From contig NZ_JAUSVO010000003.1 in NCBI RefSeq assembly GCF_030814715.1, positions 558,001 through 622,000 on the forward strand: a stretch of 64,000 nucleotides of DNA, in the 5' to 3' direction. Below the pieces are notes generated by a model. That model was given only the letters and a program-made list of their open reading frames with translations, made no database searches and was not told the DNA's origin. The position numbers and the translations under genes are program-made. Of this stretch, positions 29,273-60,217 are shown piece by piece. How positions within the stretch are numbered: position 1 is the stretch's first letter; each line of letters begins with the position of its first letter. The DNA is from Kaistia dalseonensis. GTDB lineage: Bacteria > Pseudomonadota > Alphaproteobacteria > Rhizobiales > Kaistiaceae.

Positions 29273-29498
29273 AGCCCCGACCTCTCTGGATCTGGGCCTC
29301 TGACAAACCCGTCGCGGTTCAACAACAATCGCGCTGGAAACCCAGACGGCTTGAGGTAACAAATCCTCTTGCGGACTCAGTCCTGATGCTGAGGCGAAGG
29401 GCACTCAGATCAATCTGTCAGAAGAGTCTACACCTCAAACTAAGCTCCCGACGGCGGCATGGCGATCTTGTTGACGAAGGGATCTACCCAGGCATTGT

Positions 29499-30224: not shown

Positions 30225-30361
30225 TCAGATCCCGTTCTTGACGATGCCCCGCCTATGATATCCCAATCCGCCGCAGGCGACTATCGCTCCGACAGGACTC
30301 ATAGTCGCCATTCGCTCAGCTGAACGCACCTCTATAACGCTACCGCTTATCTGGATGCTGG

Positions 30362-30739: not shown

Positions 30740-30811
30740 ACCCGGAGGTAAACCACCCGGCTATTATGGGCGCCGAAGTGGCCACCAATGCAGCACCGTG
30801 ATGATTGGGAA

Positions 30812-31960: not shown

Positions 31961-32289
31961 GATTATCGTTCCATAGACTTAGTTCCACATCGTGCTGGCT
32001 CTGGCCATCACGATGTGGATGGGCGCGTCGCAACAAGCCGAGCAGTAAGGTCTCAAATGGGTGCAGCCGTCAATCATCTGCACGCCGGATCTGCAACCCG
32101 ATAGCGGCAGATGTACCAGACGAATCCGCCGCCAGTTTGTGGTGACGGGCCTGTGCGATACCAGTCGAATTGTTGAGCACAAGGATATCAGGCTCGGAAG
32201 GCGTCAACGAGCAGCGATTGATGCGGCAGAACAATGCGGACACGCGCGCAACTGTCGACGGAAAAATGGACTCCGTCAGGACCTGTTGG
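31961..32289. other. Intergenic stretch, no gene recognised
   Basis: About 330 bases upstream of the aminotransferase. A 67-codon - strand frame (31979-32182) contains a cysteine-rich stretch but no known motif, and its third-position composition is not gene-like. The aminotransferase promoter should lie here but no clear -35/-10 was found. Confidence 0.4.
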
Positions 32290-44113: not shown

Positions 44114-45265
44114 CTACCAGTTCGTCACCGAGCCATCATTGCGCTTCAGATGCGGGGCTTCCCAGAACTTGAAGCTCTGCTTCTTGATCAGGTCCTCGTT
44201 CACTTCAACGCCGAGGCCGGGCGAATCCGGCACCGGATAATGGGCGTTCTCGATCCGGGGCTGGACGGGGAAGAATTCGGAATTGTCGAAGCCGAGTTGT
44301 TCAGCCGTCGACGTGCGCGTCTCGAGCCAGGAGAAGTTCGCGACGGCAGCCGCAAAATGAACCGTTGCGGCCGTGCAAATGGGCCCGAGCGGATTATGCG
44401 GCATCATGTCGACATAATGCGCCTCGCTCCAGCCGGCGACCTTCATGGACTCGGTCAGGCCGCCGACATTGCAGACGTCGATGCGATTGAACTGGTGAAT
44501 ATCCCGCTCGATATAGGGCAGGAACTGCCATTTCGAGGCGAATTCCTCGCCGATCGCAAAGGGAACATCGACCATCCGGCGGAGCGCCTCATAGGCTTCC
44601 GGCGTCTCGTCGCGGATCGGCTCCTCGATGAAGTCGAGCGTGCCCGACGGCATCTTCTGACAGAAGCTGGCGGCCTCCGCGACGGAGAGGCGGTGATGAT
44701 AGTCGATGCCGAGCACGACATCCTCACCCAGTTCCTCTCGCGCCTTCACACACCATTTCGCCGAACTCGCTATATGCTCGCGCGGCTCATAGTTTGTCGG
44801 ATGACCATGGCCCGACGGCGATAGTCGCATCGCCGTCCAGCCTGCCGCGATCAGTTCCTTGGCTTGCTCGATCATCTCTGGCCCGGGCGGCGCCGAGGTG
44901 GTGGCAAAAGTCGGGATCCGGTCACGCTGCTTGCCGCCGAGAAGCTGGTAGACCGGCACGCCGAGCGCCTTGCCGAGGATGTCGTAGAGCGCGATGTCGA
45001 TGGCGGAGATGGCGGCCTGCAGGACGCGGCCGCCCTCGAAATACTGGCTGCGATACATCTCCTGCCACAGCGCGCCGATCCGCCGCGGGTCGCGACCGAT
45101 CAGGAATTCGCGGTAATGATCGATCGCACCCACGACGGCCTTCTCGCGGCCCGAGAGGCCGCTTTCGCCCCATCCGAAAATGCCCTCGTCGGTTTCGACC
45201 TTCACGATCAGCTGGTTGCGCGTGCCGACCCAGACCGGATAGGCGACGATGGCGGAGATTTTCAT
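44114..45265 (-). CDS. Enolase-superfamily sugar-acid dehydratase (DgoD-like)
   Basis: 383 residues, the length of D-galactonate dehydratase. Start ATG 45265. Metal and catalytic residues: Asp and His in LGIDYHHRLSV, Glu in DFIEEPIRDE, Glu in AIGEEFAS, and the second catalytic His in MMPHNPLGPI, a DgoD hallmark. The ending NDGSVTNW also matches DgoD. The acid is undefined: galactonate is a family inference, and the neighbours point to other uronates or aldonates. Last gene of the ten-gene operon, 43 nt after the RraA-like gene. Confidence 0.85.
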   Translation of the reverse strand: MKISAIVAYPVWVGTRNQLIVKVETDEGIFGWGESGLSGREKAVVGAIDHYREFLIGRDPRRIGALWQEMYRSQYFEGGRVLQAAISAIDIALYDILGKALGVPVYQLLGGKQRDRIPTFATTSAPPGPEMIEQAKELIAAGWTAMRLSPSGHGHPTNYEPREHIASSAKWCVKAREELGEDVVLGIDYHHRLSVAEAASFCQKMPSGTLDFIEEPIRDETPEAYEALRRMVDVPFAIGEEFASKWQFLPYIERDIHQFNRIDVCNVGGLTESMKVAGWSEAHYVDMMPHNPLGPICTAATVHFAAAVANFSWLETRTSTAEQLGFDNSEFFPVQPRIENAHYPVPDSPGLGVEVNEDLIKKQSFKFWEAPHLKRNDGSVTNW

Positions 45266-45308
45266 GGGCTGATATCCGGATTTCGGGGCGGGCGAAGAAG
45301 AGCGGCGT

Positions 45309-46055
45309 TCAGACAGGCTTGAGCGGATGGGTCTTCCGCCATTCTTCATATTCGGGGCGCGCAGCGTCGGAGAGCGGGTAGTAGCGCTGGAGAGAACCGC
45401 CCTTCAGCAGCATCTCGCGCGAGAAATCCTCCCAGTCGTGATGAGTGCCGGCATGTTCGAGCACCTGATAGCCGAGCGCGGCCGGGACCACGCAGGCGCC
45501 GTCATCGTCCGCGACGATGATGTCGCCCGGCATCACCGTGACGCCGCCGCAGGCGATCGGCGTGTTCACGGCAAAGGGCATCAGCGAGGTCTGGGTGTGG
45601 AAGTTCGGCGTGACGCCGCGCAGCCAATATCCAAGATCGATCTGCTGCGCATGCGGGTAGTCGCGGATGCAGCCATCGATCACGACACCGGCGCCACCGC
45701 GCCCCTTGAAATAGGTCAGCATCATCTCGCCGAAGATGCCGCTCCGCATGTCGCCGCGCGCATCGACGACGACGATGTCGCCGGGTTGGGTGTGGTAGAG
45801 GACGTGGCGGTGGAGCTGCTTTTCCGGCTCGTTATATTCGCCCTCGCCATAGAGGTCCTCGCGCTTCGGCATGAATTGCAGCGTCAGCGCCGGCCCGGCG
45901 ATGGCGCGGCCCTTGGTCCAGGCGACGGGTCCTTCCATGAAGGTGTCGCGCACGCCCATATGGTGCAGCGTGGCGCAGGCCGTGGCGCATCCGAGCGCCT
46001 GAAGTGCCGCCACCAGATCGGCTGGCGGCCGGACGATATCCTTGGTCTCGATCAT
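45309..46055 (-). CDS. RraA/HMG-aldolase-like family protein
   Basis: 248 residues from ATG 46055, with a strong GGGAGGAG site. The active-site region GAGVVIDGCIRDYPHA near 125 carries the Arg-Asp pair seen in 4-hydroxy-4-methyl-2-oxoglutarate/oxaloacetate aldolases. RNase-E inhibitor RraA proteins are shorter (about 160 residues). In a sugar-acid operon, retro-aldol cleavage or decarboxylation of a keto-acid is the likelier job than RNA decay control. It lies between two enolase-superfamily genes. Confidence 0.82.
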   Translation of the reverse strand: MIETKDIVRPPADLVAALQALGCATACATLHHMGVRDTFMEGPVAWTKGRAIAGPALTLQFMPKREDLYGEGEYNEPEKQLHRHVLYHTQPGDIVVVDARGDMRSGIFGEMMLTYFKGRGGAGVVIDGCIRDYPHAQQIDLGYWLRGVTPNFHTQTSLMPFAVNTPIACGGVTVMPGDIIVADDDGACVVPAALGYQVLEHAGTHHDWEDFSREMLLKGGSLQRYYPLSDAARPEYEEWRKTHPLKPV

Positions 46056-46081
46056 GTCTCTTCTCCTCCCGACACGCTGGC

Positions 46082-47293
46082 TCACCAGTGCCAGATCGTA
46101 CCGTCCTCGAGCCGGTTGACCGGCAGATAGGCGCGCTCATAGGGGTACTGGGCTGCCAGCGCCTCATCGATATCGACCCCGTGGCCGGGCGCTTCGCCGG
46201 GATGGAGATAGCCGCCATCCTGCCGCCATGAATGCGGGAAGACCTCGTGCATCAGCGGCGTGTAGCCGGAGAATTCCTGGATGCCGAAATTGGGCACCCA
46301 GAGGTCGATATGGACATTGGCCCCCATCGCCACCGGCGAGACGTCCATCGGGCCGTGGCAGGCCGTGCGCACGTGATAGATCGAGGCGAAGTCGAAGATC
46401 CGCCGGAGGCCCGTCACGCCGCCGGCATGGACCGTCGTGGCGCGGATATAGTCGATCAGTTGTTCCTCGATCAGCAGCTTCGCGTCCCAGATCGTGTTGA
46501 ACACCTCGCCGAGCGCGATCGGCTGCGTCGTGTGTTGGCGGATGAGGCGGTAGCCCTCCTGCAACTCGGCCGGAACGGGATCCTCGAGCCAGAACAGGCG
46601 GAACGGCTCCAGATCCTTGCCGAGACGGGCCGCCTCGATCGGCGTCAGGCGATGATGGGTGTCGTGCAGCAGGTGCAGCTCATCGCCGTAAGTGTCGCGG
46701 AGCCGCGCGAAGAGCTTCGGAATATGGACCATGTATTTCGAGGTCGACCACACCTCTTCATTCGGCAGCGCGTCGACCATGCCGCCCTTGCCCTGGTCGG
46801 AGTTCTTGCCCGTGCCGTAGATCGCCGGCAGGCCGGGAATGCCGACCTGGGCACGGATCGCGACATAGCCCTCCTCGCGCTTGGCGCCGACCGCGTCCAC
46901 GGCTTCTTCGATGCTCATGCCCTGCGCGTGCGAATAGACCATCACCTTCTCGCGCGAAGCGCCGCCGAGAAGCTGGTAGAGCGGCATGTTGGCCGCCTTG
47001 CCCTTGATGTCCCAGAGCGCCATGTCGACGGCCGAGATCGCGGCCATGGTGATCGGCCCGCGCCGCCAATAGGCACCGCGATAGAGATATTGCCAGATAT
47101 CCTCGATCCGGCTCGGGTCACGCCCGATCAAGAGCGGCGCGACATGGTCCTTGAGATAGCTGACGACAGCGAGCTCGCGTCCATTCACCGTGCCGTCGCC
47201 GATGCCATAGAGGCCCTCGTCGGTGATGATCTTGACGGTGACGAAATTGCGTCCGGGCGAGCAGACGATGACTTTGACGTCCGTGATTTTCAT
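46082..47293 (-). CDS. manD: D-mannonate dehydratase, ManD type (enolase superfamily)
   Basis: 403 residues, matching ManD (about 402). Characteristic [27 protein letters not shown], catalytic Asp and His in [11 protein letters not shown], Glu ligands in WLEDPVP and ALGEVF, His in [10 protein letters not shown] and the GANVHIDLW segment. Likely converts D-mannonate (or gluconate) to 2-keto-3-deoxygluconate. ManD-type proteins range from efficient to nearly inactive, so activity is not assured. A UxuA-fold dehydratase two genes upstream could be redundant or act on another epimer. Confidence 0.87.
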
Positions 47294-47338
47294 GGATCTT
47301 GCCTTGAATGATGCGAATGGCGGCGGCGGGCGTTGGCC

Positions 47339-48169
47339 TCAGCTTGGATCGTGACGCCAGCCGAGCATTCGCTCGGCCTTCGCCGAGGAGAAGAAACTCC
47401 GATTGCCGTCGAGATCGCCGCGAATGGGAACATCGGGAAAGAAGCGGGCTGCGAGCTCGCGGCTCGGAACGTCCATCACCGTGTCGGGCGCCACGATGTA
47501 GAACACCTCATGCCCAGTGAAGGGAGCCTCCAGCGCCAGCAGGCAGGCGCGCGAGGCGGCGTCATAAAGCGTGTAGGCCCAGAGATGCTTGGCGAGATCC
47601 TCGCTGGCGCGGCCATAGATCTCGACGGCCTTGGCGCGCTCGTCGGTCACCAGATGAAAGCGCATGCTGGATATGCGTATGCCCTCATAGCGGCGGGCGA
47701 ACATGTCCGCCTGCTGCTCGCAGATCCATTTCGACAGCCCGTAGGGCTCCTCGCTGTAATTGGGGTGCGCCTCGTCGAGCGGCAGATAGTCGAAATGCGC
47801 CGCCCGGCTGAAGGATAGCCCGATCGCGTTGACGCTCGACGCCTGCACGATCCGCATGATGCCGACCTCGACGGCCGCGCGGAGCGCGTTGTAGCTGCCG
47901 ACCACATTGTTGTTGTGAACGATGTGGTCGGGATCGCGCATGGGCGACGGGATCGCCGCCATGTGGATCAAGGCATCGGCGCCGCGAAAAGCTTCGACGA
48001 GGCCTTCATAGTCCCCCATGTCGGCCTGCACGAAACGGAGGTTCTCGCGCGTCTCAGGCTCCGCCGGCGCAACACGGTCGATGGCGATGACACTATGGCC
48101 CTGGCGCAGCGCTTCGGTCGTGATGGCGCCGCCGATCCTGCCGGTGGCTCCGGTAATGGCGATTTTCAT
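47339..48169 (-). CDS. NAD-dependent epimerase/dehydrogenase (uronate-dehydrogenase-like)
   Basis: 276 residues, extended SDR fold. Start ATG 48169 from MKIAITGATGRIGGAITTEAL; a longer open frame reads out of phase inside the next gene. Active site: QASSVNAIGLSF (Ser) and YGLSKWICEQQ (YxxxK). Length and sequence are close to uronate dehydrogenases, which oxidise glucuronate or galacturonate to aldaro-lactones. A ketoreductase role on a hexulosonate is possible. It lies between UxuA-like and ManD-like genes. Confidence 0.78.
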   Translation of the reverse strand: MKIAITGATGRIGGAITTEALRQGHSVIAIDRVAPAEPETRENLRFVQADMGDYEGLVEAFRGADALIHMAAIPSPMRDPDHIVHNNNVVGSYNALRAAVEVGIMRIVQASSVNAIGLSFSRAAHFDYLPLDEAHPNYSEEPYGLSKWICEQQADMFARRYEGIRISSMRFHLVTDERAKAVEIYGRASEDLAKHLWAYTLYDAASRACLLALEAPFTGHEVFYIVAPDTVMDVPSRELAARFFPDVPIRGDLDGNRSFFSSAKAERMLGWRHDPS

Positions 48170-48179
48170 GGCCGGCTTC

Positions 48180-49142
48180 CTATGAGGCGTAGACGGCCTG
48201 GTGCAGGCCGCGAATGTAGCCGATGGCGTAGAGCCGCCCGAAGGCCGAATAGCCGGCCTGATCGTTGCTGTCGCCCTCGACGGTCGGCACATGGTCGGGA
48301 CGCAGCACGCCCTCAAAGCCGATGTCGCGATAGGCCCGCATGCAGGCCAGCATGTCGGTCTTGCCGGCGTCGTGCCATGTCTCCTCGAAGGCTTTCGGCG
48401 TGCCGCGCACATCGCGGAAATGAACGAAGGAGATCTTCTTGCCGAATTTGCGGATCGCGGCCGGCAGATCGTCGGTCATCAGCGTGAAATTGCCCTGGCA
48501 GAGCGTGATCGTGCTCATCGGGCTCGGCACCGTCTCGATGAGGCGCTGGTAATTTTCGATCGAGCGCATGATGCGGCCGACGCCGCGGATCGGCGACAAG
48601 GGCGGATCATCGGGGTGCATCGAAATCTTGACGCTGGCTTTCTCGGCCACCGGCAGCACCTTCTTCAGGAAGTATTCGAGATTGGTCCAGAGCGCCTCTT
48701 CATCGATCGGCGGATTGGCGGTGATGTCGGCCGGGACGTCCTCCAGCTTGAAGCTGGTCACCACCGAGCCGCCGCGCGACGGCGTCGCGAGATTGGTGCG
48801 GACCCAGTTGAAATCGGTCATCCACTCGTAGCACCAGACAGGAACCCCCAGCTTGCCCATATTCTCAATGAGCGTGCAGACCGTCGCGATCTCCTCATCG
48901 CGACCGGGCAGACCACGCTTCGCTTTGTTGAGCGGCGGCCGCGCCTCGATCACGACGAGCTTGAAGCCGTTCTCCTCGTAGCGATCCTTCATGCGCTTGA
49001 GAGGGGCATAGTCCCACGGTGCCTCGCCTTGCAGCAGGTCCTCCGGCGGCAGGCCGCCGACCGCGAGGTCGACGCCCGCCTGCCTGGCGAGCTTCCACAC
49101 CGGCGACGGCGTCGGGCTGATGAATTCGGCAATTTCGAGCAT
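48180..49142 (-). CDS. UxuA-like mannonate dehydratase (TIM-barrel)
   Basis: 320 residues from ATG 49142, which begins MLEIAEFISP; a longer frame to 49184 is less convincing. Xylose-isomerase-like TIM barrel related to UxuA: KISMHPDDPPLSPIRGVGRI near 200, KISFVHFRDVRGT near 250, and RPDHVPT near 285. These keep the His, Cys and Asp metal positions of UxuA. Shorter than E. coli UxuA (about 394), like many alphaproteobacterial homologues. Follows the ATPase by 90 nt. Confidence 0.83.
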   Translation of the reverse strand: MLEIAEFISPTPSPVWKLARQAGVDLAVGGLPPEDLLQGEAPWDYAPLKRMKDRYEENGFKLVVIEARPPLNKAKRGLPGRDEEIATVCTLIENMGKLGVPVWCYEWMTDFNWVRTNLATPSRGGSVVTSFKLEDVPADITANPPIDEEALWTNLEYFLKKVLPVAEKASVKISMHPDDPPLSPIRGVGRIMRSIENYQRLIETVPSPMSTITLCQGNFTLMTDDLPAAIRKFGKKISFVHFRDVRGTPKAFEETWHDAGKTDMLACMRAYRDIGFEGVLRPDHVPTVEGDSNDQAGYSAFGRLYAIGYIRGLHQAVYAS

Positions 49143-49232
49143 GATGGGCAGGTTCCGTATCCAATCCGGCCTTGGGACCGGCATTGATCGACGTGAGAAT
49201 TCGGGAAGATCCGGACGAAGCTTCGAAAGGCC

Positions 49233-50232
49233 TCAGGCAGGAAGCATTTCGGAGAGACGCTCCTTCACGACCTCTGGCTGCTGGTCGTAGAGAAAGCACG
49301 ATGCGGTGTGGCGCCGGCTGATCTCATAGAGCGGCGGCTCGCTGGCGCACTGGTCCATCGCCATCGGACAACGGGAGCGGAAGCGACATCCTTCTCCGCT
49401 GCCACCGCTCGCCTCGCGCGCCTTGATCGGCTGCGCGCCCCAGCGCTGATCGAGGTTCGGCCAGGGGATCGAATCCACGAGCAACTGCGTATAGGGATGG
49501 CGCGGATCCTTGATCACCGCATCGACATCGCCCGCCTCCATCACACCGCCCCGATAGAGCACGATGATCGATTTCGCGATGTGATAGGCCGTGGTCAGGT
49601 CGTGCGTGATGTAGATGATCGAGACGCCATGATCGCGCTGCAGGTTGCGCAGCGTTTCGAGGATCGTCGCCCGAAGCGAGGCATCCACCATCGACACCGG
49701 CTCGTCGGCGATCAGCAGGCGCGGCTTCAGCAACAGCGCGCGCGCGACATTGATGCGCTGGCGCTGCCCGCCGGAGAGCTGATGGGGAAACCGACCCAGA
49801 ATATCCTCCGGCCGCAGACCGACGGCGGTCAGCGCCTCCTCCATCTTGTTGCGGGCATCCGCCCTGGATTTCGCCAGCTTGAAGTGCTTGATCGGCACCG
49901 TCAGAAGATGGTCGACCGTATAGAACGGGTTGAAGACGGCGAACGGATCCTGGAACACCGCCTGCACCTCGCGGCGATAGGCGAGCTTGTCCTCGCCATA
50001 GAGCGTCGAGATGTTGCGGCCGCGATAGATGATGCGGCCGGTCGTGGGCAGGATGAAGCCGAGCAGCAGCATGGCGAGCGTGGTCTTGCCGCTGCCGCTC
50101 TCGCCCGCGACGGTCAGGATGGTCGGCTCGTCCTCCTTGAGCGTCAGCGAGATGTTCCGAAGCGCGATCGTGGCATGGGTGTTGATGAGGCCGCGCGTAT
50201 AGGCCTTGGAGACATTCTCCAGCTGCAAGAGA

Positions 50233-50240
<8 letters not shown>
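49233..50240 (-). CDS. Dpp/Opp-type ABC transporter ATP-binding protein (DppF-like)
   Basis: 335 residues. ATG 50240 is preferred (GGAG 9 nt upstream) to 50258. Walker A GESGSGKTTLA near 45, signature HQLSGGQRQRI, Walker B LLIADEPVSMVD, and a C-terminal oligopeptide-transporter extension with a cysteine cluster (CRFRSRCPMAMDQC), typical of this class and often an iron-sulfur site. Overlaps DppD by 8 nt. The substrate here is more likely an oligosaccharide than a peptide because of the catabolic neighbours. Confidence 0.92.
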
Positions 50241-51276
<1,036 letters not shown>

Positions 51277-51281
51277 TGCCG

Positions 51282-52190
51282 TCACTCCGACCTGCGCACG
51301 CGGGGATTGGCCAGTTCGTCGAGCCCCATATTGATGAGGGCGAGCGAGCCGAGGATCAGGATCATCGCGATCGACGGGATGATCGGCCACCACCACCAGC
51401 CATTAAAGAAGGCGCCCTGGCTCTGGGCAGCCCAGATGATGTTGCCGAGCAGCGGCTCGCGCAGGGGGCCGAGGCCGAGCACGGCGAGATAGAACGAGGC
51501 GAACACGGCGACGAACACCTGGGCCACGAAGGCGGCCGCGATGAACGGCAACAGGCAGGGCAGGATTTCCTTGAAGATGATGCCGAGGTCGCTCACGCCG
51601 GAGAGCTTCGCCACGGCGACGAACTGCCTCTCCTTCATCGTCAGGACCTGCGCGCGGATCACCAGGGTCGGGCCCATCCAGGCCAGCAGCACGACGATCA
51701 GCGCCATGGTGACGATGGTGACGTCGCGCTTGTCGAGCGAGCCCGCAATCACGACCTGGATCAGCAAGACCGGGATCGGCGTCAGGATCTGGCAGATCGT
51801 GCGGATGGAACCGTCGATCCACCGGCCGAAATAGGCCGAGATGAAGCCGAGGAAGACGCCGATCAGTGTCCCGAGCCCACCGGCGAGCACGCCGATAAAG
51901 GCCGTCTGCCACATGCCCACCACCATGGCGGCCAACAGGTCGCGGCCGAAGAAATCCGTGCCGAACGGGTATTTCCAGCTCGGCGGCTTCTTGAGCGCCA
52001 CGGAGAGCGGATAGGCGTTCTTGGTGTTGACCGTGAGCAGGCCGATGACCGTGAAGGCGACCAGCGCGAGAAGGATGATGACGCCGAGCGCGAGGCCCTT
52101 GTTGCGGCGCAGGTAGCGGAGAAAGAGGACCAGGCTGCCCGGCCGTTCGATCGACTTCTCCACGGGGGGTGACAGCGCGACAGTGGACAT
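51282..52190 (-). CDS. Dpp/Opp-type ABC transporter permease (DppC-like)
   Basis: 302 residues with an N-terminal cytoplasmic tail, six helices and the DppC pattern: FGTDFFGRDLLAAMVVGMWQT near 92, then IPVLLIQVVIAGSLDKRD, and the coupling EILPCLLPFIAAAFVAQVF. Located 9 nt after DppB. Confidence 0.92.
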   Translation of the reverse strand: MSTVALSPPVEKSIERPGSLVLFLRYLRRNKGLALGVIILLALVAFTVIGLLTVNTKNAYPLSVALKKPPSWKYPFGTDFFGRDLLAAMVVGMWQTAFIGVLAGGLGTLIGVFLGFISAYFGRWIDGSIRTICQILTPIPVLLIQVVIAGSLDKRDVTIVTMALIVVLLAWMGPTLVIRAQVLTMKERQFVAVAKLSGVSDLGIIFKEILPCLLPFIAAAFVAQVFVAVFASFYLAVLGLGPLREPLLGNIIWAAQSQGAFFNGWWWWPIIPSIAMILILGSLALINMGLDELANPRVRRSE

Positions 52191-52199
52191 GGTGCGCTC

Positions 52200-53198
52200 C
52201 TATGAATGCCGGATTCGAGGGTCGAGCAGCGGCAGGATGAATTCGACGACGGTCATCAGCACGGCGACCGCGATGGTGATGAACAGCACGATCCCGTAGA
52301 TGGTCGGGAAGTCGTTCGAGCGGATCGCGAGATTGAGCATCGTGCCGATGCCCGGCAGGCCGAACAGCCCTTCGACGATGATCGCCGAGGTCACGACTGT
52401 GCCAAGCGCCAGGGCAAAGCCCGTGACCTGCGGCAGCATCGCGTTGCGAACGTAATAGTCGCGGAAGATACGGCCAGCGGTCAGGCCCTTGTGCTCGGCG
52501 AAGTTCACATAGTCCTCGCCCTGGATCGTGATGCCCATGCCGCGCATCGAGAGCACCCAGCCGCCGACCGAGCCGAAGATGAGCGCCAGCGCCGGCAGGA
52601 TCTGATGCCGCATCAGGTCGAAGAAGAAGACCCAGGTCCAGGTCGGCACGACGCCGACCGAATAGGCGCCACCAAGCGGCAGCCATTTGAGGCGGAAGCC
52701 GATGAAGAAGAGCAGCAGGATGCCCATGATCACGGGGGGGACGCCCGTCAGCAGGATGAACGGCGTCGCAAACCCGCGCAGCCATCCCGGCGCGCGCGGC
52801 CAGGCGGAAATGGCGCCGAGCAGATTGCCGATGACGAAGCTCAGGATCGTCGTGACGAGCAGCAGGCCGATCGTCCAGGGCAAAGATTGCGCGATCAGGT
52901 CCGACACGGTCGACGGATAGCGATAGAGCGAATAGCCGAAGTCCAGGCGCACGATATTGCCGAGATAGTGCCAGTATTGCGTCAACAGCGGCTGATCGAG
53001 GCCGAACTGCTGGTTCATGTTGGCAATGATCTTCTCCAGATCTTCGGGCGAGAAACCGCCCGTGCGCGCCAGTTCACCGAACCGCTCGCGCAGTGCGTTG
53101 CGGCTGGACAGGCGTGGAATGAAGAAGACGATTGTCGACGCGGCCCAGATGACGAGGACAAGGAAGACAAGGCGTCGGATGACGAGCTTGAAAGTCAC
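52200..53198 (-). CDS. Dpp/Opp-type ABC transporter permease (DppB-like)
   Basis: 332 residues, six helices. The start FKLVIRRLVFLVLVIWAASTIVFF is the classic DppB first helix. Then LDFGYSLYRYPSTVSDLI near 95, and the EAA-like loop YYVRNAMLPQVTGFALALG near 250 with GLFGLPGIGTMLNLAI. Downstream of the binding-protein gene by 132 nt containing two hairpins. Confidence 0.92.
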   Translation of the reverse strand: MTFKLVIRRLVFLVLVIWAASTIVFFIPRLSSRNALRERFGELARTGGFSPEDLEKIIANMNQQFGLDQPLLTQYWHYLGNIVRLDFGYSLYRYPSTVSDLIAQSLPWTIGLLLVTTILSFVIGNLLGAISAWPRAPGWLRGFATPFILLTGVPPVIMGILLLFFIGFRLKWLPLGGAYSVGVVPTWTWVFFFDLMRHQILPALALIFGSVGGWVLSMRGMGITIQGEDYVNFAEHKGLTAGRIFRDYYVRNAMLPQVTGFALALGTVVTSAIIVEGLFGLPGIGTMLNLAIRSNDFPTIYGIVLFITIAVAVLMTVVEFILPLLDPRIRHS

Positions 53199-53268
53199 GG
53201 CGATGTTCCTGACGTCTCTTGCTGTTTCGGCAAGTCCCGCCGCATGGGCGCGTCTTGCCGTCGGGGAT

Positions 53269-53293
53269 GGTGCGCGCCGATGGAGCGCGCACC
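53269..53293 (-). terminator. Intercistronic hairpin between binding protein and permease
   Basis: GGTGCGCGC / GCGCGCACC, a perfect 9-bp stem with a 7-nt loop, 38 nt after the binding-protein stop. A second stem, CGGCAAG / CTTGCCG (53228-53260, 19-nt loop), follows. No U-tract. This would favour high binding-protein and lower transporter expression. Confidence 0.55.
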
Positions 53294-53330
53294 CTCTCTC
53301 GCAAGCGGATTGCTTGCTTTCGCGGACGGA

Positions 53331-55130
53331 CTATTGAGCGCCCGTCGGCTGCAGCGAGACAATCACCGGCAGGCCGGTATGAGCCCAGAACGCGCCGTTC
53401 GTGCCCGAAGCGACGTTCGTGGAGCTCGGCCAGTTCTTCCAGTAGTGGTTGTTGTAGGGGATGCGGTGCAGCCACTGGATCACCGGAACGTCGATGACGT
53501 CGCGCCAGTAGATGCCCATGGCCTTGGCGGCCCCTTCCTGGAACTTGGGATCGTCCGAACCAAGCGGCGAGATCTCGTCCAGGATCTTGTCGAACTCCTC
53601 GTTCTTGTAGCGCGAGAAGCGGTTGTTGCCGGCGGCGGAGCCGATCGAATTGCTGTACTTGCCGTGGAAGAGGTTCAGCGCCTCGAACGGGTCGTACAGG
53701 CTGGCGCCATGGCCGAACATGTAGAGGCCGGCCTTGCCGTCCACCATGTTCTGATAGGCATCGGTGCCGAAGTTCACATTGGCATCGAAGCCAGCCTGGC
53801 GCAGCATTTCAGCGAGCACCGGGGCGATATCGCCATGGATGTTCTCGAAGGCCTGGATCGTGGCATCGAACGTCTTGCCGTCCTTCTCCCACAGGCCGTC
53901 GCTGTTCTTGGTGAAGCCGGCCTCGGTCATGAGCTTGGCGCTCTCTTCGAGGTCGAACTTGCCCGGCTCGTACTTCGCCGCCTCAGCCTTCACCGCGTCC
54001 GAATCCGCGAACTTCTGCAGGTTCGGATAGAGCGGGAAAGGATAGATGGTGGCGATCTTGGCGCCGTCGTAGAGGACTTCGTCGATCTTGTCCCGGTCGA
54101 TGGCGAGGCTGATCGCCTTGCGCACGCGCACGTCGTTATAGGGCGGGAGCTGATCGTTCATCCAGAGCGAGTTCGGCCACCAGTCGAGATAGCCATAGGG
54201 CGACTCGGTACCGGTCCAGGACTGGATATCCTTGTTCTGCTCAAGGATGTTGCCAATGATCTGGGCGCGCATGTCGACCGACGAGTCGAACTCGTTGTTC
54301 ACGAGCCGCTGGGCAACCGTGTCCATCGGCTGGTTGAGGACATTGACCACCACGACCCGCTTGACCGCGGGCTCGGGCGAGCGTCCAGCCTTCACGCCCC
54401 ACCAGTCGGGGCGCAGATCCATGATCTTCTGGTTGGCGTTCCAGGCGACGATGTCATAGGGGCCGGAATGCGGCATCTGGTCGAGGCCGACGGCCTTGGT
54501 CGGATCGGCCTGGGCCGCTTCCCAATGCTCCGGCACGATCGGCAGGCCGGTATCGAACTTCTCCGTCAGCACCTCGAACTTGAAGCGCGGCGCGGGCTGC
54601 TTGAACTTCACTTCGACCGTCAGGTCGTCCTTCGCGGTGACGCTCTCGACGAACTGCTGGAAATGGGCGTGATAGGGCAGCGTCTCGCGCTGCATCTGCC
54701 CTTCGAACGTATAGACGACGTCCTTGGAGGTGACCGGCTTGCCGTCGCTCCACTTCGCGTCCTTGTTCAGCTTGATCTCGAGCGAGGTGAAATCCGGGCT
54801 CGTATATTCCATGCTGTCGGCGAGCCAGGGAATGTACTCGCCCTTGAAGATGGCGAAATACATCAATGGCTCGAACAGGAGGTTGTTGCCCTCCTGGTGC
54901 GTATAACCCGGCAAAACCCATGGATTGGTCGTGCCCATGGACGTGCCACCGGCAACGCCCCATCCGAGAACGAGTGTCTCGTTGCGCGGGACGACCGGCA
55001 GAGCGCCCTTCGGCGCGATTTCCTGCGCGGCCGGCAGGCCAGCCCCGCCACTTTGCGCGAACGAAGCCACCGGCGTCAGCATGGTCGCAGCGACCAGCAT
55101 CGCGCCTGCAATACTCTTTAGATTGACCAT
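53331..55130 (-). CDS. Family-5 ABC transporter substrate-binding protein
   Basis: 599 residues with a Sec signal peptide (MVNLKSIAGAMLVAAT..., ASFA before QSGG near 25). Family-5 (DppA/OppA class) fold: ATG 55130 after GGGAGGAG; NNLLFEPLMYF near 82, AKWSDGKPVTSKDVVYTFEG near 125, RKAISLAIDRDKIDEVLYDG near 335. It is longer than typical DppA (about 535). Oligosaccharide-binding members of this family also tend to be long. First gene of the ten-gene sugar-acid operon, so the bound ligand is probably a uronate- or aldonate-containing glycoside. Confidence 0.9.
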   Translation of the reverse strand: MVNLKSIAGAMLVAATMLTPVASFAQSGGAGLPAAQEIAPKGALPVVPRNETLVLGWGVAGGTSMGTTNPWVLPGYTHQEGNNLLFEPLMYFAIFKGEYIPWLADSMEYTSPDFTSLEIKLNKDAKWSDGKPVTSKDVVYTFEGQMQRETLPYHAHFQQFVESVTAKDDLTVEVKFKQPAPRFKFEVLTEKFDTGLPIVPEHWEAAQADPTKAVGLDQMPHSGPYDIVAWNANQKIMDLRPDWWGVKAGRSPEPAVKRVVVVNVLNQPMDTVAQRLVNNEFDSSVDMRAQIIGNILEQNKDIQSWTGTESPYGYLDWWPNSLWMNDQLPPYNDVRVRKAISLAIDRDKIDEVLYDGAKIATIYPFPLYPNLQKFADSDAVKAEAAKYEPGKFDLEESAKLMTEAGFTKNSDGLWEKDGKTFDATIQAFENIHGDIAPVLAEMLRQAGFDANVNFGTDAYQNMVDGKAGLYMFGHGASLYDPFEALNLFHGKYSNSIGSAAGNNRFSRYKNEEFDKILDEISPLGSDDPKFQEGAAKAMGIYWRDVIDVPVIQWLHRIPYNNHYWKNWPSSTNVASGTNGAFWAHTGLPVIVSLQPTGAQ

Positions 55131-55413
55131 ATGACAGATCTCCTCCCTTTACTGTCGAATGGAACAAAGTCTTATTCTGACTTCGAATTAGCTCTTCCTG
55201 CTCCTTCTTCGAAAGCTCAACCAGATAACGGTTAATCGCACGAAATCACCGGCCTTGTTTATCTATATTTCCGATGCGTCGCGAAACCGCCCAAACCAGA
55301 GCCCAAGCCCCCCCTAAGCAGACCCGACGCGCCATCGCCGATTCCTCGGTCGACGATGAACGCGTCCCATGCCGTCGCCACCTCCAAGCCCAAGCAACAG
55401 ACACGACAAATCA

Positions 55414-55431
55414 ATCAACACTAACGTTGAT
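55414..55431. promoter_or_regulatory. Inverted repeat (operator candidate)
   Basis: ATCAAC and GTTGAT separated by ACTAAC, a perfect 6-6-6 repeat in the AT-rich control region. The binding protein is unknown. Confidence 0.4.
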
Positions 55432-55506
55432 AATTACCATGATAGCGATTTTCCGATGAATCGACCATAATAGATCGAATTTCATCTGCATCCTCCCGTT
55501 GCGGTA

Positions 55507-55536
55507 TTGCAAATTTCTCAAGCAACCCGCTATTAT
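55507..55536 (+). promoter_or_regulatory. Candidate promoter of the UxuA-like gene
   Basis: TTGCAA (55507-55512), 18-nt spacer, TATTAT (55531-55536). Transcription would begin near 55543, giving a leader of about 220 nt before the ATG at 55763. Confidence 0.42.
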
Positions 55537-55555
55537 ATATTATAACCTTAGCGTT

Positions 55556-55573
55556 AAGTCAGTTTAACGACTT
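55556..55573. promoter_or_regulatory. Inverted repeat just downstream of the promoter
   Basis: AAGTC and GACTT flanking an 8-nt AGTTTAAC centre, which would straddle the early transcribed region. Next to it, TGGTCAACCG (55573-55582) is one base away from the FadR/FCD GntR pattern TNGTNNACNA. Either could be a repressor site. Confidence 0.4.
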
Positions 55574-55762
55574 GGTCAACCGCGAACCCTCCATTTTCGG
55601 GCCGAATTTCGTGTGCCAGATCACTTTTCCGGCGGGTTCGTTTCGGCGAGCGCCGGCGTGGCGAAAGCCAGACAGAATCATCGTTTCCAGGCCCTCGCCC
55701 GACCGCTCAACACGTGTCGGGTCATAGGCCCAACCAATCGCAATCAAGAGGAGGAAGAAGCC

Positions 55763-56809
55763 ATGTCCGAAGCCGCCATGCGGGTCGCCGTGGGCCAGTT
55801 TCACGACCTGACGGACGAGAAGCTCCGTTTCGCCGCGCAGATCGGCGTCACGGGGATCCAGATGAACAATCCGAGCCTGCCCGGCGATACCCATTGGGAA
55901 GAGGCCGATATCCGCAAGCTGGTCGACAAGATCGAGGCGGCCGGCCTCATCTTCGAGGCAATCGAAAACGTCCCCACCCATTTCTACAACAAGGCCATGC
56001 TGGGCCTGCCGGGCCGCGACGAGCAGATCGAGAATTACTGCCGGACCGTGCGCAACATTGGACGGGCGGGCGTGCCGATCCTCGGCCTGCATTTCATGCC
56101 GAATTCGGTCTGGCGCACCGAGCGCCGCGCGCCTGGCCGCGGCGGCGCCGGCAATACACGCTTCGAGATGGCCAAGGTCGAGGGCACGACGAAGGATGAC
56201 TGGCGCCGCTTCATGCCGACCACGCTCGGCCGCCCTGATTCCATGCCGGTCTTCGACGAAGAGGACGACATCATCACCGCCGACATGATGTGGTCGAACT
56301 ACACTTACTTCATGGACGCCGTGCTGCCGGTCGCGGAGGAAGCCGGCGTGAAGATCGCCCTCCATCCCGATGATCCGCCCGTGCCGATGCTGGGCGGCGT
56401 CGCCCGCATCTTCAAGGAGCCGACCGATTTCAAGCGTGCCTATGCGCGCTATGCGAACAGCCCGTCCTGGGGTCTCGACCTCTGCCTTGGCTGCTGCTCG
56501 GAAATGCCGGGCGGCGCCGACAATGTGCGAGACCTGATCACCTTCTTCGCGCCGAAGGGCCGGATCTTCTACATCCATTTCCGCGACGTGCAGGGCACGG
56601 TTCCCGACTTCATCGAATGCTTCATCGGCGAAGGCAATTTCGACCCGGCGGAGGTCATGACGCTGCTGAAGGCGAACGGCTTCTCCGGCTTCCTGCTCGA
56701 CGACCACGTTCCGCACATGGACGACGACACCGACTGGAACCATCGCGGGCGCGCCCATGCGATCGGCTACATGCAAGGCTTGCTGCGCATGGCCGAACGC
56801 GCGGCCTGA
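55763..56809 (+). CDS. UxuA-like mannonate dehydratase (second copy)
   Basis: 348 residues. ATG 55763 follows GAGGAGGAAGAAGCC, a strong site; the longer frame to 55613 is leader sequence. Same TIM-barrel family as the protein at 48.2-49.1 kb: KIALHPDDPPVPMLGGVARIF near 198, FYIHFRDVQGT near 270, and LDDHVPHMDDD near 312. The two copies differ in length and in the metal-site surroundings (CLGCCSEM here, CQGNFTLM there), suggesting different substrates. Monocistronic, converging with the enolase gene 10 nt downstream. Confidence 0.83.
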   Translation: MSEAAMRVAVGQFHDLTDEKLRFAAQIGVTGIQMNNPSLPGDTHWEEADIRKLVDKIEAAGLIFEAIENVPTHFYNKAMLGLPGRDEQIENYCRTVRNIGRAGVPILGLHFMPNSVWRTERRAPGRGGAGNTRFEMAKVEGTTKDDWRRFMPTTLGRPDSMPVFDEEDDIITADMMWSNYTYFMDAVLPVAEEAGVKIALHPDDPPVPMLGGVARIFKEPTDFKRAYARYANSPSWGLDLCLGCCSEMPGGADNVRDLITFFAPKGRIFYIHFRDVQGTVPDFIECFIGEGNFDPAEVMTLLKANGFSGFLLDDHVPHMDDDTDWNHRGRAHAIGYMQGLLRMAERAA

Positions 56810-56819
56810 GGCGCTGCCG

Positions 56820-58019
56820 CTAGCGATCGAAGAAGCCGGCATCGTCTTCTCGCAAATATTGTTTCGCGGCCTCGGCATTGATGTCGAGGCCGAGACCCGG
56901 CGCCTCGAGCAGATCGACCATGCTGTCCTTGACGATCTGCTGGGGAAGCCCTTCCACGATGTCGTACCACCAGGGATCGGAGGCGCTCGGATACTCGAAG
57001 GCGATATAGTTCGCCGGCAAAGTCGCGCACACATTGATCAGCGCGCCGAGGCCGAGCAGGCCATTGGCGGTGCCGTGCGGCGCCATCAGGATCGAGTGCA
57101 TGTGCGCATGCTCCGCAATCCATTTCAGCTCGGCGATGCCGCCGACATCGGCCGGGTCCGGGCCGACGACGTTGATCGCCTGGGTCTCGATCAGTTCCTT
57201 GAAATTGTTGCGGAGATAGATCTGCTCGCCAGTGTGGATCGGCACGGTGGTCGAGGTCGTCAGCTCGCGATAGGCCTGCGGGTTGACCCAGGGCGTGTAG
57301 TCGCCGGTCAGCATGTCCTCGAGCCACATCAGATTGTATTTTTCGACGGCGCGGGCGAAGCGGATCGCATCCGGCAGCATCCAGCCGGGGCCGCAATCGA
57401 GCGCCAGGCTCACCTTGTCGCCGAGCACCTCCTTCATCGCCGCGACGCAGTCGAGCATGTGGTTGAAGCCACGCTCGCTGATCAGCCCGGTATCCATCGC
57501 ACCGTGGAAATGACTGTCCTGCGGAATGCCGTAATGGAAATCGGGAAAATCGCGCTTCATCGACGAGTGGAAGCTGATGCCCTGCTTCACCATGAAGAAC
57601 TGCTCGGGCAGATCCATCATCCACTTGCATTCGGCGGCGTAGTCTTCAGGCCTCGTCCCCGTCATCGGCCGCCTGCGCGAGCCGTTATAGACGCGGACCT
57701 TGTCACGCACCTTGCCGCCGAGGAGCTTATAGACCGGTACATTCGCCGCCTTGCCGGCAATATCCCAGAGCGCATGCTCGATCGCGCTGATCGCCGCGCC
57801 ATAGGGCTTGAAACTGCCCCGCTGGCGGATCTTCAGCATGCAGCGCTCGACGTCGGTCGGGTCTTCGCCGATCAGCGCCTCGCGGAACTGCAGCACGAAG
57901 GGCTTCAGATAGGTCTTGGTGAATTCGACCTCACCCAGCCCGTAAAGGCCCTCATCGGTGGTGATGCGCACAATCGGATGACGCCCGATCACCGCGCACT
58001 TCAAATCCTTGATCTTCAT
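56820..58019 (-). CDS. Enolase-superfamily (mandelate racemase/muconate lactonizing) enzyme, C
   Basis: 399 residues from ATG 58019, starting MKIKDLKCAVIGRHPIVRITTDEGLYGLGEVEF; the upstream extension is antisense-like. Metal ligands are Asp in LALDCGPGWML, Glu in MWLEDMLTGDYTPW, and Glu in IHTGEQIYLR. The general base His is in LMAPHGTANGL. A lysine in FFMVKQG lies at the KxK position. Sugar-acid dehydratase or cycloisomerase likely; substrate unknown. Follows enzyme D by 49 nt. Confidence 0.82.
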   Translation of the reverse strand: MKIKDLKCAVIGRHPIVRITTDEGLYGLGEVEFTKTYLKPFVLQFREALIGEDPTDVERCMLKIRQRGSFKPYGAAISAIEHALWDIAGKAANVPVYKLLGGKVRDKVRVYNGSRRRPMTGTRPEDYAAECKWMMDLPEQFFMVKQGISFHSSMKRDFPDFHYGIPQDSHFHGAMDTGLISERGFNHMLDCVAAMKEVLGDKVSLALDCGPGWMLPDAIRFARAVEKYNLMWLEDMLTGDYTPWVNPQAYRELTTSTTVPIHTGEQIYLRNNFKELIETQAINVVGPDPADVGGIAELKWIAEHAHMHSILMAPHGTANGLLGLGALINVCATLPANYIAFEYPSASDPWWYDIVEGLPQQIVKDSMVDLLEAPGLGLDINAEAAKQYLREDDAGFFDR

Positions 58020-58068
58020 TGGCAATATCCGCGCTGGAGTTTCCGCTTCAAACGAGAGAGGGCGACGT

Positions 58069-59394
58069 TCAGTCGTCCTCATGCCCGCGGAAATCGGCGC
58101 CCACGCGCAGATCGTTCCATTCGTTGGTAGCGGCGAAATAGCTGGCGTTCTTGCGCAGGTTCTCGCGGATGACGTCCTCGTTGAGATCGATTCCGAGGCC
58201 CGGCGCATCCGGCACGCTGACATAGCCGTCGGCCATGTAGTCGGCATCCATCCCGCGCACCAGATCGCGGAAGAATGGCAGGTCGAGACCGTGATGCTCG
58301 ACCGCGACGAGGCTCGCGATCGAGGCACCGAGATGCACATTCGCCATGAAACCGACCGGCGAACAGCAGGCATGCAGCGCCGTCGGAATGCCGAAGCGCT
58401 CGGCATGGTCGGCGATGCGCTTGGTCTCCATCAGCCCACCGGAGGAGAGCATATCGGGATGGATGATATCGAAGGCGCGCGTTTCGATCGCCTCGCGGAA
58501 CCCTTCCCAGAGATAGAGGTCCTCGCCGGCGGCAACCGGCGTCAGCAGCGCATCGGCGACCTTCTTGTGCCCGGCAATGTCGCGCCAGGGCATGACATCC
58601 TCGATCCAGGCGAGATTATAGGGCTCGATCGCCTTGCCGATGCGGATGGCTTCATCGGCCGTGACATAACCCTCGCCAAAATGATCGGTGCAGAGAGAGA
58701 CCTCGTCGCCGACCGCCTCGCGCACCGCGGCACAGATCGAGGCCGCGAGCTCGACGCCCTTCTCGCTGATACGCGGGCCAGCGCCGCGCCCGGGGACATA
58801 CCATTGATTATACTGATGATATTCGTGCTTCGTCGCGCTGCCGACCAGCGCGCCGGGGGTCTTCTCGAAGAGCCGCGCCGGCAGGTCGAACTTGATGAAG
58901 GTGAGGCCGAGCGCGCGACGCCGCATCACGACCTCGACATAGCCCTCGGGCGTCTGGTTGCGCGGCGCCGGCGTATCGCCATAGAGGCGCACCTTGTCGC
59001 GATATTTGCCGCCGAGGAGCTGGTAGCAGGGAATGCCATAGACCTTGCCGACCAGGTCCATCAGCGCGATCTCGATGCCGCAGACGCCGCCCGCCTCGCG
59101 GCTGTCGCCGCCATAGCGCTTGATCGACTTGAACAGATAATCGACGTTGCAGGGATTCTGGCCGACCAGCAGGTGCTTCAGCCGGAGTGCCGTGTCGGGA
59201 TGGGCGCCGTCGCGCACCTCTCCCAGGCCATAGATGCCCTGATTGGTGTCGATCCTGAGGATCGGATAGTAGCCATGCCCGACGATCGTCGCGACGCGGA
59301 CATCGGTTATTCTGAGTTTTGACGGCTCTGATGCAATGCGGATCGCGTTCTCGACGCTTTCAGTCAACTCCAACGGCTCGGCAACAACGGACAC
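58069..59394 (-). CDS. Enolase-superfamily (mandelate racemase/muconate lactonizing) enzyme, D
   Basis: 441 residues from a GTG at 59394, preceded by GGAGG with 7-nt spacing. Metal ligands Asp in LCTDHFGEGY, Glu in AWIEDVMPWRD, Glu in AAGEDLYLW. His in ALHACCSPVGFMANVH. A lysine in LTFIKFD lies at the second-strand position. Related to enzyme C (similar ED-x-M and GE-x-(I/L)YL segments), so a local duplication is possible. It begins 36 nt after the GntR gene on the same strand. Confidence 0.82.
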   Translation of the reverse strand: MSVVAEPLELTESVENAIRIASEPSKLRITDVRVATIVGHGYYPILRIDTNQGIYGLGEVRDGAHPDTALRLKHLLVGQNPCNVDYLFKSIKRYGGDSREAGGVCGIEIALMDLVGKVYGIPCYQLLGGKYRDKVRLYGDTPAPRNQTPEGYVEVVMRRRALGLTFIKFDLPARLFEKTPGALVGSATKHEYHQYNQWYVPGRGAGPRISEKGVELAASICAAVREAVGDEVSLCTDHFGEGYVTADEAIRIGKAIEPYNLAWIEDVMPWRDIAGHKKVADALLTPVAAGEDLYLWEGFREAIETRAFDIIHPDMLSSGGLMETKRIADHAERFGIPTALHACCSPVGFMANVHLGASIASLVAVEHHGLDLPFFRDLVRGMDADYMADGYVSVPDAPGLGIDLNEDVIRENLRKNASYFAATNEWNDLRVGADFRGHEDD

Positions 59395-59430
59395 TTGGTT
59401 TCCTCCGGATTGTCATTTTGTGCATGGTGG

Positions 59431-60135
59431 TTAATCCACCTTGTCTTTGGGCAGCGTGCGGCGGGCAGCGCGCATCTGCTCGATGATGTGACGGCCCGAT
59501 CCTTCGACGTGCCGCGCGATGATCGCGGCGGCCGCCTGTTCGTCATGGGCCTTGATCGCCTCGATCACCTCGCCATGCTCGCGCATCACCGCGGCCTGGC
59601 GCCCGAGCGAGGTGCGGTGGCGGCGACTGATGGCGCGCAGGATCTCGCGGTGCTTCCACCAGAGATCGACCGCGTGGCGATTGTAATGGCGCTCATACAT
59701 GGTGTGGTGAAACTGGGTGTCGAGCACGGTGTGGCGCAGCGGGTCGGAGTAGTTGAGCCGCAGCATCTCGGCATGGAGCGCCTCGAGCGTCTCGATATCG
59801 GCGTCGGTGGCAATACCGACGAACCAGCGCGTCAGGGCCGGCTCGATCAGAACCTCAATCTCGTAGATGTCGCGGATGAAATCCTCGTCGATCGGGCGTA
59901 CCCGAGCGCCGCGGTTCTGCGCCATCGTGACGAATCCCTCGCCGCGGAGCTGCTGCAAGGCTTCGCGGACAGGATTGGTCGAAGTTCCATGCTGCTCGGC
60001 GAGATCGGCGACGATCAGGCGCGCATTGGCCGGCAGGCGACCCGAAATAATGTCCTCGCGGATCGCCTCATAGACCGAGGCTTCGCGGTCAGGCGACTGA
60101 AAAGCAGAGAAATCCAGGCTGGGAGCAATGCTCAT
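59431..60135 (-). CDS. GntR-family regulator, FCD (FadR) subgroup
   Basis: 234 residues from ATG 60135; a longer frame to 60201 is less likely. N-terminal winged HTH: SVYEAIREDIISGRLPANARLIVADLAEQ..., TNPVREALQQLRGEGFV near 50. C-terminal all-helical FCD domain with metal-type histidines (LDTQFHHTMYERH near 145, HGEVIEAIKAHD near 190, ARHVEGSGRH). FCD regulators commonly sense sugar acids. First gene of a transcript with the two enolase genes, so probably an autoregulated local repressor. Confidence 0.9.
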   Translation of the reverse strand: MSIAPSLDFSAFQSPDREASVYEAIREDIISGRLPANARLIVADLAEQHGTSTNPVREALQQLRGEGFVTMAQNRGARVRPIDEDFIRDIYEIEVLIEPALTRWFVGIATDADIETLEALHAEMLRLNYSDPLRHTVLDTQFHHTMYERHYNRHAVDLWWKHREILRAISRRHRTSLGRQAAVMREHGEVIEAIKAHDEQAAAAIIARHVEGSGRHIIEQMRAARRTLPKDKVD

Positions 60136-60207
60136 CGCGGGCTTCTGCGTAACCTGACCGTGCCGCAATACCCGAACTTCAGAGTACCGCACGTGATCCA
60201 TTCAATT

Positions 60208-60217
60208 TCGTGTACGA
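60208..60217 (-). promoter_or_regulatory. Candidate GntR/FadR-type operator
   Basis: TCGTGTACGA, fitting the FadR/FCD half-site pattern TNGTNNACNA, located 73-82 nt upstream of the regulator's ATG. Consistent with autoregulation. Confidence 0.5.

Follow-up and report, generated by a model that had tools for sequence, protein, structure and literature searches.

A putative non-phosphorylative sugar-acid locus of Kaistia dalseonensis and its conserved rhizobial counterpart

What kind of compound might be degraded by a locus that places four enolase-superfamily proteins and two UxuA-fold proteins behind a single ATP-binding cassette (ABC) importer? Such a locus occupies positions 44114-60201 of a 64-kb stretch of the Kaistia dalseonensis genome (5.18 Mb, 11 contigs), hereafter the window. 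Genes were called from open frames, start choice and Pfam/NCBIfam family matches, giving 14 genes, and all named genes are intact open frames with family matches. A sequence-only reading of this DNA had listed four enolases, two UxuA-fold proteins, a short-chain dehydrogenase/reductase (SDR), an RraA-like protein, a Dpp-type importer and a GntR-FCD regulator, all of which are present; its span of 44114-60135 covers this gene set but ends early, the GntR start lying 66 bases past 60135 and the true end at 60201. The observation is real and exceeds chance. Judging from sequence, we think it somewhat probable (about 0.58) that the locus encodes a non-phosphorylative sugar-acid unit, in which oxidation and stereospecific dehydrations would be followed by RraA cleavage to pyruvate and an aldehyde. 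Its gene content makes it the Dpp-importer form of a conserved module; in Rhizobium and Mesorhizobium, this module comes with a CUT1 importer instead.

In the proposed pathway, the substrate would be a sugar acid, or a sugar or short acidic saccharide converted to one, brought in by the solute-binding protein (SBP) and the Dpp importer. The SDR would oxidise C1 (or an aldehyde) to a lactone, which would open spontaneously or through an unlinked lactonase. The dehydratases, each suited to a different stereochemistry, would then remove water to give 2-keto-3-deoxy acids, and RraA would split them into pyruvate and a short aldehyde, which would make a kinase and a 2-keto-3-deoxy-6-phosphogluconate (KDPG) aldolase dispensable. 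The GntR-FCD regulator would sense an acid intermediate. Gene content, linkage, conservation and catalytic residues were seen; from them we infer every reaction, the step order and the substrate. The genes are as follows.

59431-60201, minus strand: GntR-FCD regulator (Pfam GntR + FCD), first gene before enoD and enoC
58069-59394, minus strand: EnoD, enolase superfamily (MR_MLE), sister of rhizobial EnoY; KFD on beta-2, DHFGE on beta-3
56820-58019, minus strand: EnoC, enolase superfamily (MR_MLE); Lys145/His315, beta-3 His absent; nearest solved relative 2qq6
55763-56809, plus strand: UxuA2, divergent UxuA-fold protein (PF03786, E 1.3e-56), opposite to the remaining genes
53331-55130, minus strand: periplasmic solute-binding protein, SBP_bac_5 (Pfam); best solved match 4pfu
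52200-53198, minus strand: Dpp-type permease B (family match)
51282-52190, minus strand: Dpp-type permease C (family match)
50233-51276, minus strand: Dpp-type ATPase D (family match)
49233-50258, minus strand: Dpp-type ATPase F (family match)
48180-49184, minus strand: UxuA1, predicted UxuA-fold dehydratase, above the NF003027 cut-off and below that of TIGR00695
47339-48169, minus strand: extended SDR, candidate sugar/uronate dehydrogenase (family matches)
46082-47293, minus strand: ManD (RspA-like), NF043051; Arg147, Tyr159, His213, Pro315
45309-46055 (start may be 46085), minus strand: RraA-like protein, candidate 2-keto-3-deoxy acid aldolase, NF006093/PRK08245; E110, R131, D132
44114-45265, minus strand: EnoA, predicted DgoD-like dehydratase, NF010624 below cut-off; His190/His290

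The minus strand thus reads GntR-FCD, EnoD and EnoC, and later SBP, DppB, DppC, DppD, DppF, UxuA1, SDR, ManD, RraA and EnoA, with the plus-strand UxuA2 placed between EnoC and the binding protein. Strand and spacing predict three transcription units: gntR-enoD-enoC, uxuA2 alone, and SBP-dppBCDF-uxuA1-sdr-manD-rraA-enoA. The flanking genes look unrelated to the locus, with amine-oxidase family, DUF1365 and cyclopropane synthase family genes on one flank, and CobW and a major facilitator superfamily carrier on the other.

The EnoC module and its rhizobial counterpart

Of 202 confirmed EnoC relatives, the best 80 were used to assess conservation, counting whole genes with length limits. EnoC in these loci is about 85% identical or more to the window EnoC, and they therefore say little on distant relatives. 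EnoC was accompanied by EnoD or EnoY in all 80; in 79 loci the two lie within about 550 bases of each other, and in L011 they are about 6 kb apart. A whole-length GntR relative was present in 74 loci, and a piece in one more. EnoC, EnoY, EnoX, EnoA, RraA, GntR and the CUT1 SBP were all whole-length in 47, and 23 further loci lacked only a whole RraA, which most of them have as a fragment truncated at the edge of the locus. In 22 of the 80, RraA is present as a piece only; in L006 and L011, for example, the locus end cuts it. The window likewise holds EnoC with EnoD, GntR, EnoA, RraA and one ABC importer. A Dpp-type SBP occurred in two of the 80 loci, those of a strain labelled Mesorhizobium sp. 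BR1-1-16 (L002) and of Kaistia soli (L003), which are also, among the loci kept, the closest relatives of the locus. In a sample of 297 genomes from the order, that of K. dalseonensis among them, 17 had EnoC (E 1e-120), and 19 each had UxuA2 (E 1e-40) and RraA of this branch (E 1e-60); this RraA branch is uncommon, and UxuA2 reaches identities of at least 86% only within the genus.

That this set is retained together with a single importer and a single regulator suggests a dedicated class of substrate. A broad scavenging function, in which parallel dehydratases would serve several sugar acids with no single pathway, could draw on the distinct active sites among the window enolases and on a precedent in SAR202, described in PMC10444878 as having parallel non-phosphorylative pathways with enolase paralogues; as the same set is kept across loci (47 of 80 complete, 23 more save RraA), we regard it as highly improbable.

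In Rhizobium johnstonii 3841 (R. leguminosarum 3841; L005), the gene order is RraA and EnoA, CUT1 importer, GntR, EnoX, EnoY and EnoC. Shared with the window are EnoA (76% identity), EnoC (86%), RraA (66%), GntR (61%), an enolase in the EnoD/EnoY slot and one ABC importer. Unlike the window, the rhizobial locus has a CUT1 instead of a Dpp importer and an extra EnoX, and SDR, UxuA1, UxuA2 and ManD were not found in it. A search of the whole genome placed four MR_MLE genes at 4074519, 4081536, 4083054 and 4084280, and a fifth 6 kb further at 4068146. As judged from gene order and strain, from which the tags are inferred, the locus matches RL3858-RL3866 of strain 3841. According to a 2011 paper (PMC3333776), the CUT1 transporter RL3860-2 of R. 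leguminosarum was induced in all rhizospheres, has an unknown solute and is surrounded by RL3858 and RL3864-66 of the mandelate-racemase family; slight induction was seen for only two of the four enzyme genes, and the transporter mutant had a rhizosphere competitiveness index of 0.58 on pea. Its authors tie the four mandelate-racemase-family enzymes to lignin breakdown (PMC3333776). The active sites and the link to RraA and UxuA argue instead for sugar acids. The suggestion that the locus is an undescribed system holds in part: the sister locus has been in print since 2011, but as a system of unknown solute (PMC3333776). Searches of the open-licence literature gave no substrate assignment for this gene set, nor any report coupling RraA with the enolase superfamily or with a sugar-acid aldolase.

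Active sites of the dehydratase-fold proteins

The window enolases were compared, in a 365-sequence enolase alignment, with E. coli DgoD, RspA, GudD and RhmD, excluding identical rows and hits of 300 or fewer aligned residues. All four keep the three metal ligands and the beta-7 histidine. EnoA and ManD share the beta-3 histidine of DgoD and RspA, and the Asp at DgoD position 258 is kept in EnoA but not in ManD or RspA. EnoC lacks a histidine on beta-3 and has a beta-2 lysine at the position of the second lysine of GudD, a less sure comparison because GudD is badly aligned at the third metal ligand. The EnoC pattern (FMVKQG/FMIKQG, ALDCGPG, MAPHG) was identical in 82 of 82 harvested EnoC rows. 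EnoD carries KFD on beta-2 and DHFGE on beta-3. The four proteins thus show at least three active-site patterns, indicating that they are not copies of one enzyme; redundancy was ruled out by these patterns together with their places in the tree. Family matches and active-site patterns also bear out the earlier description of a sugar-acid type catabolic unit with non-identical dehydratases.

In a 62-row tree, ManD groups with E. coli RspA (100/100), and EnoC, EnoD and EnoY occupy a common branch (97/85) apart from DgoD and ManD. EnoD and rhizobial EnoY are sisters (100/98), a join that is among those for which the program warns that long branches are brought together. The EnoC structure model is good, with a predicted local distance difference test score (pLDDT) of 88.6; its fold matches confirm the superfamily only and point to no function, and a family missing from the match list is not thereby ruled out. 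The best match, 2qq6 from Rubrobacter xylanophilus, has IDMHGR where EnoC has LDCGPG, and its listing states no function.

ManD, a candidate D-mannonate dehydratase, matches the NF043051 equivalog with 696.2 bits (cut-off 550) and has R147, Y159 and H213, that is, the Arg147-Tyr159 pair and the beta-3 His. The numbering of this pair is that of N. aromaticivorans ManD, and the PDB titles of A314P and P317A mutants partly echo these residues. The ManD subgroup also holds gluconate-acting and weak members. EnoA, at 286.5 bits, misses the equivalog NF010624 of the galactonate dehydratase DgoD (cut-off 311); its H190 and H290 form a two-histidine active site matching the catalytic H185 and H285 of DgoD. 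The contexts of other enolase sites in the same genome (L130-L135) gave nothing that was used.

The two UxuA-like dehydratases had been called divergent, and both indeed fall under the TIGR00695 equivalog cut-off; the plus strand of UxuA2 had gone unmentioned. UxuA1 scores 222.1 against the NF003027 subfamily (cut-off 191) and 155.5 against TIGR00695 (199.55), and keeps H190, C229, H255, D297 and H298. UxuA2 is below both cut-offs (155.8 for NF003027, 119.2 for TIGR00695) and keeps HPDDPP, C241, H272, D314 and H315. That either is the cell's ordinary mannonate dehydratase was ruled out, a stronger UxuA match lying on another contig (E 1.2e-113). The contexts of UxuA2 relatives (L149, L151-L154) provided nothing that was used. 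The SDR does resemble the solved uronate dehydrogenases 3ay3 (E 1e-10, fourth rank) and 3rft (E 1.4e-8), as its label of uronate-dehydrogenase-like implied, but among many extended SDRs of like score.

None of the Ashwell hexuronate genes uxaC, uxuB, kdgK and kdgA is among the 14 locus genes. Their reported absence applies to the locus, whereas the genome holds, besides the UxuA match, one UxaC-family gene on another contig, two KDPG-aldolase-family genes and two Mannitol_dh (uxuB family) matches over cut-off, assigned at the family level only (E 7.9e-16 and 1.6e-11); kdgK was looked for in the locus only.

RraA, lactonases and the final cleavage

The RraA-like protein has 248 residues and matches NF006093/PRK08245 with 287.9 bits (cut-off 208), and scores 103.5 against TIGR02798, the equivalog of 4-hydroxy-4-methyl-2-oxoglutarate/4-carboxy-4-hydroxy-2-oxoadipate (HMG/CHA)-type aldolases, below its cut-off of 304.5. 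A D/E-X20-R-D signature reportedly marks such aldolases, and E-X20-R-D has a single match in the window protein (E110-R131-D132), aligned with the HMG/CHA-type aldolase 3noj. This agrees with the proposal of the sequence-only reading that the protein cleaves a keto-acid.

RraA neighbourhoods were collected from 29 non-own places in 18 genomes, as stretches of 10-20 kb. An enolase or UxuA gene was present in 23 of the 29: in 12 of 12 EnoC- or Dpp-type modules and in 11 of 17 places elsewhere, with the dehydratase gene of L117, L119 and L122 lying 6-7 kb from RraA on the other strand. By our own estimate, which uses the 13 enolase and 3 UxuA genes found in one genome, a random place has a chance of about 4% per 20 kb of lying near a dehydratase. 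The 29 loci (L100-L128) and the window were searched by tblastn at a threshold of E 1e-8 for relatives of three E. coli proteins (AldA, GabD, KdgK) and of a dihydrodipicolinate synthase (DHDPS)-family protein from Sulfitobacter; none turned up, which fits RraA as the last step. We prefer to read RraA, from its sequence and setting, as a putative pyruvate-forming aldolase.

Non-phosphorylative oxidative sugar pathways are known in outline. Like those described for pentoses (PMC9795676), the present unit has an SDR and enolase-type dehydratases, with a lactonase in its Dpp-type relatives; unlike them, it has an RraA-like protein in the aldolase place, several dehydratases and, in the window, no lactonase. 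An SMP-30-type lactonase stands beside EnoA or RraA in all five Dpp-type relatives with a readable end, identified by Pfam in L100, L103, L104 and L106 and by tblastn in L101 (near 11566, 28% identity). Four of the five are from the genus Kaistia and L106 is from another family, where the unit adds a glucose/sorbosone-dehydrogenase family protein. This linkage points to an order of oxidation, lactone and acid for the Dpp variant. In L100 (11204-14440), the lactonase directly follows EnoA, and a further DgoD-like enolase and an SDR come next.

An alternative end for the pathway is alpha-ketoglutarate: the SDR would yield an aldarate (lactone), the enolases 2-keto-3-deoxyglucarate-type acids, and RraA, acting like Flavobacterium FlDet, alpha-ketoglutarate semialdehyde (KGSA). 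Some enolase relatives act on aldarates. FlDet belongs to the RraA family, has a mass of about 27 kDa, where the window RraA has 248 residues, and is described as a dehydratase/decarboxylase of 2-keto-3-deoxyglucarate in an alginate pathway (PMC8563752); its likeness to the window protein is by description. That paper pairs FlDet with a KGSA dehydrogenase (PMC8563752), whereas the tblastn searches found no aldehyde dehydrogenase near RraA in the 29 loci or in the window, and we judge this route unlikely.

Several observations weigh against cleavage by RraA within a conserved sugar-acid unit. FlDet, the one RraA-family enzyme encountered in print with a role in sugar-acid metabolism, is a dehydratase/decarboxylase and not an aldolase (PMC8563752), leaving room for a non-aldolase reading of RraA. 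The tests for aldehyde dehydrogenase, kinase and DHDPS used one or two queries each, and distant members can escape. Six of the 29 RraA places (L102, L113, L115, L118, L120, L121) have neither an enolase nor a UxuA gene, L113 ending at a contig edge, and several of the 18 RraA genomes also contributed to the set of 80 EnoC loci, so that the two linkage tests are not independent. The module is complete in 47 of the 80 loci. At six more distant EnoC places (59-68% identity, L143-L148), RraA was present in none of the fetched stretches, and an EnoD-like gene (35%) only in L145, which also has a CUT1 importer; in the distant-EnoC genome G223, RraA lies about 11 kb from EnoC. L106 is a Dpp-type unit outside the genus, and EnoC was not found in its genome at E 1e-120. 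Finally, no lactonase was detected in the window locus by family scans, tblastn or a search with the L100 lactonase. The nearest relative of the latter in the genome is 48% identical and on another contig, and in the window a gap of 27 bases separates the end of EnoA from the cyclopropane synthase gene; the linked lactonase has perhaps been lost in this strain.

Compact sets of a UxuA1-like gene, a CUT1 importer and RraA with an IclR gene are found on Martelella and Agrobacterium plasmids (L084 11121-18160; L085 11118-17998), and UxuA-CUT1-RraA sets also in L127 and L128. In Paenibacillus sp. B2 and Agrobacterium sp. B1, a UxuA gene likewise lies near an RraA-family gene, and the two were proposed, from expression and annotation, to act on a fragment of a lignin dimer as a hydratase and an aldolase (PMC12673573). 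The plasmid IclR-UxuA-CUT1-RraA set may be a sugar-acid operon instead of a lignin-dimer route. Four further papers (PMC5342196, PMC7950203, PMC5789663, PMC5788505) are only loosely relevant.

Other RraA genes were noted in passing. A second RraA-family gene of the K. dalseonensis genome (contig 2, 196174-196623; G000:C2:196174-196623, L129) is 32% identical to the window RraA, and its stretch has SMP-30, SDR and GntR-like matches and no enolase match. In two genomes from the same genus (L120 14476-18500; L121 1-3300), a CUT1 importer that shares 81-93% identity with its rhizobial counterpart stands a few kb from another RraA (63%).

Importer, regulator and substrate class

The best solved match of the SBP is 4pfu (E 3.6e-37, residues 46-595), a mannoside-type SBP; 4pft and 2o7i are also near, and the group comprises T. 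maritima-type proteins that bind mannosides and related sugars. An SBP structure model from three sequences was discarded as evidence (mean pLDDT 29.5). At E 1e-60, two of 385 genomes of the class contained an SBP relative, the own and one at 30%, in a sample that missed near relatives with an SBP 87-89% identical. The similarity to mannoside/cellobiose-class proteins favours saccharides over peptides as probable ligands and does not prove an oligomer.

The sequence-only reading had envisaged an imported uronate- or aldonate-containing disaccharide whose halves go to different dehydratases. The SBP match just described and the presence of six dehydratase-fold proteins in one unit speak for such a route, as does L146 (2073-10600), where the neighbours of a distant EnoC (62%) are an SDR, Dpp genes and a hypothetical glycosyl hydrolase (GHL6). 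However, no glycosidase or lyase is among the 14 locus genes, none was identified in the part of the neighbouring frames scanned in the Dpp-type relatives, and the rhizobial sister unit, as annotated, lacks an SDR and imports through a CUT1 system. Two distant SBP relatives (31-35%; Sulfitobacter, Shinella) lie beside an enolase, SDRs and lactonases or rhamnose mutarotase, sugar-oxidation genes without an annotated glycosidase. On balance, we consider this route distinctly unlikely.

A variant that dispenses with the glycosidase starts from the constant pairing of EnoC with EnoD/EnoY in near relatives. The Lys and His of EnoC sit where mandelate racemase-type enzymes carry their opposed bases. 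Instead of dehydrating free acids, EnoC and EnoD could have as their first substrate an acidic disaccharide, as such or oxidised, and act on it, for example, by C2 epimerisation or by elimination of the glycosyl substituent adjoining the acid. The saccharide would then open with no glycosidase, and RraA would be a new terminal aldolase for the 2-keto-3-deoxy acid. We regard this as a very doubtful possibility.

Upstream of gntR lies a half-palindrome, TCGTNNACGA (60208-60217, no strand assigned), a weak candidate operator conserved in L002 and L003. The window contains four matches to this site against 1.12 expected, and 3 of 100 shuffles reach four. In the operator comparison, no shared palindrome was seen in the SBP/uxuA2 promoter.

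Another region of the window, 19242-33402, shows a drop in G+C to 55-56% across about 20-32 kb. It holds genes of surface-polysaccharide type, namely for a nucleotidyl transferase, two GT2 proteins, WbqC, a DegT aminotransferase and a methyltransferase. An IS481-type fragment lies at 26221-26898, and two large frames (21524-23659 and 23760-25355) have no Pfam match.

For the preferred sugar-acid pathway, the consequence is that a conserved rhizobial gene set now comes with a list of enzymes and with a chemistry that can be tested, namely dehydration of sugar acids and cleavage by RraA, as against lignin breakdown. If EnoC and EnoD did act first on a disaccharide, rhizobia and Kaistia-like bacteria would share a way of using acidic saccharides of plants or roots without a hydrolase. 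The substrate, once found, would name a plant-root or soil compound for which these bacteria compete.

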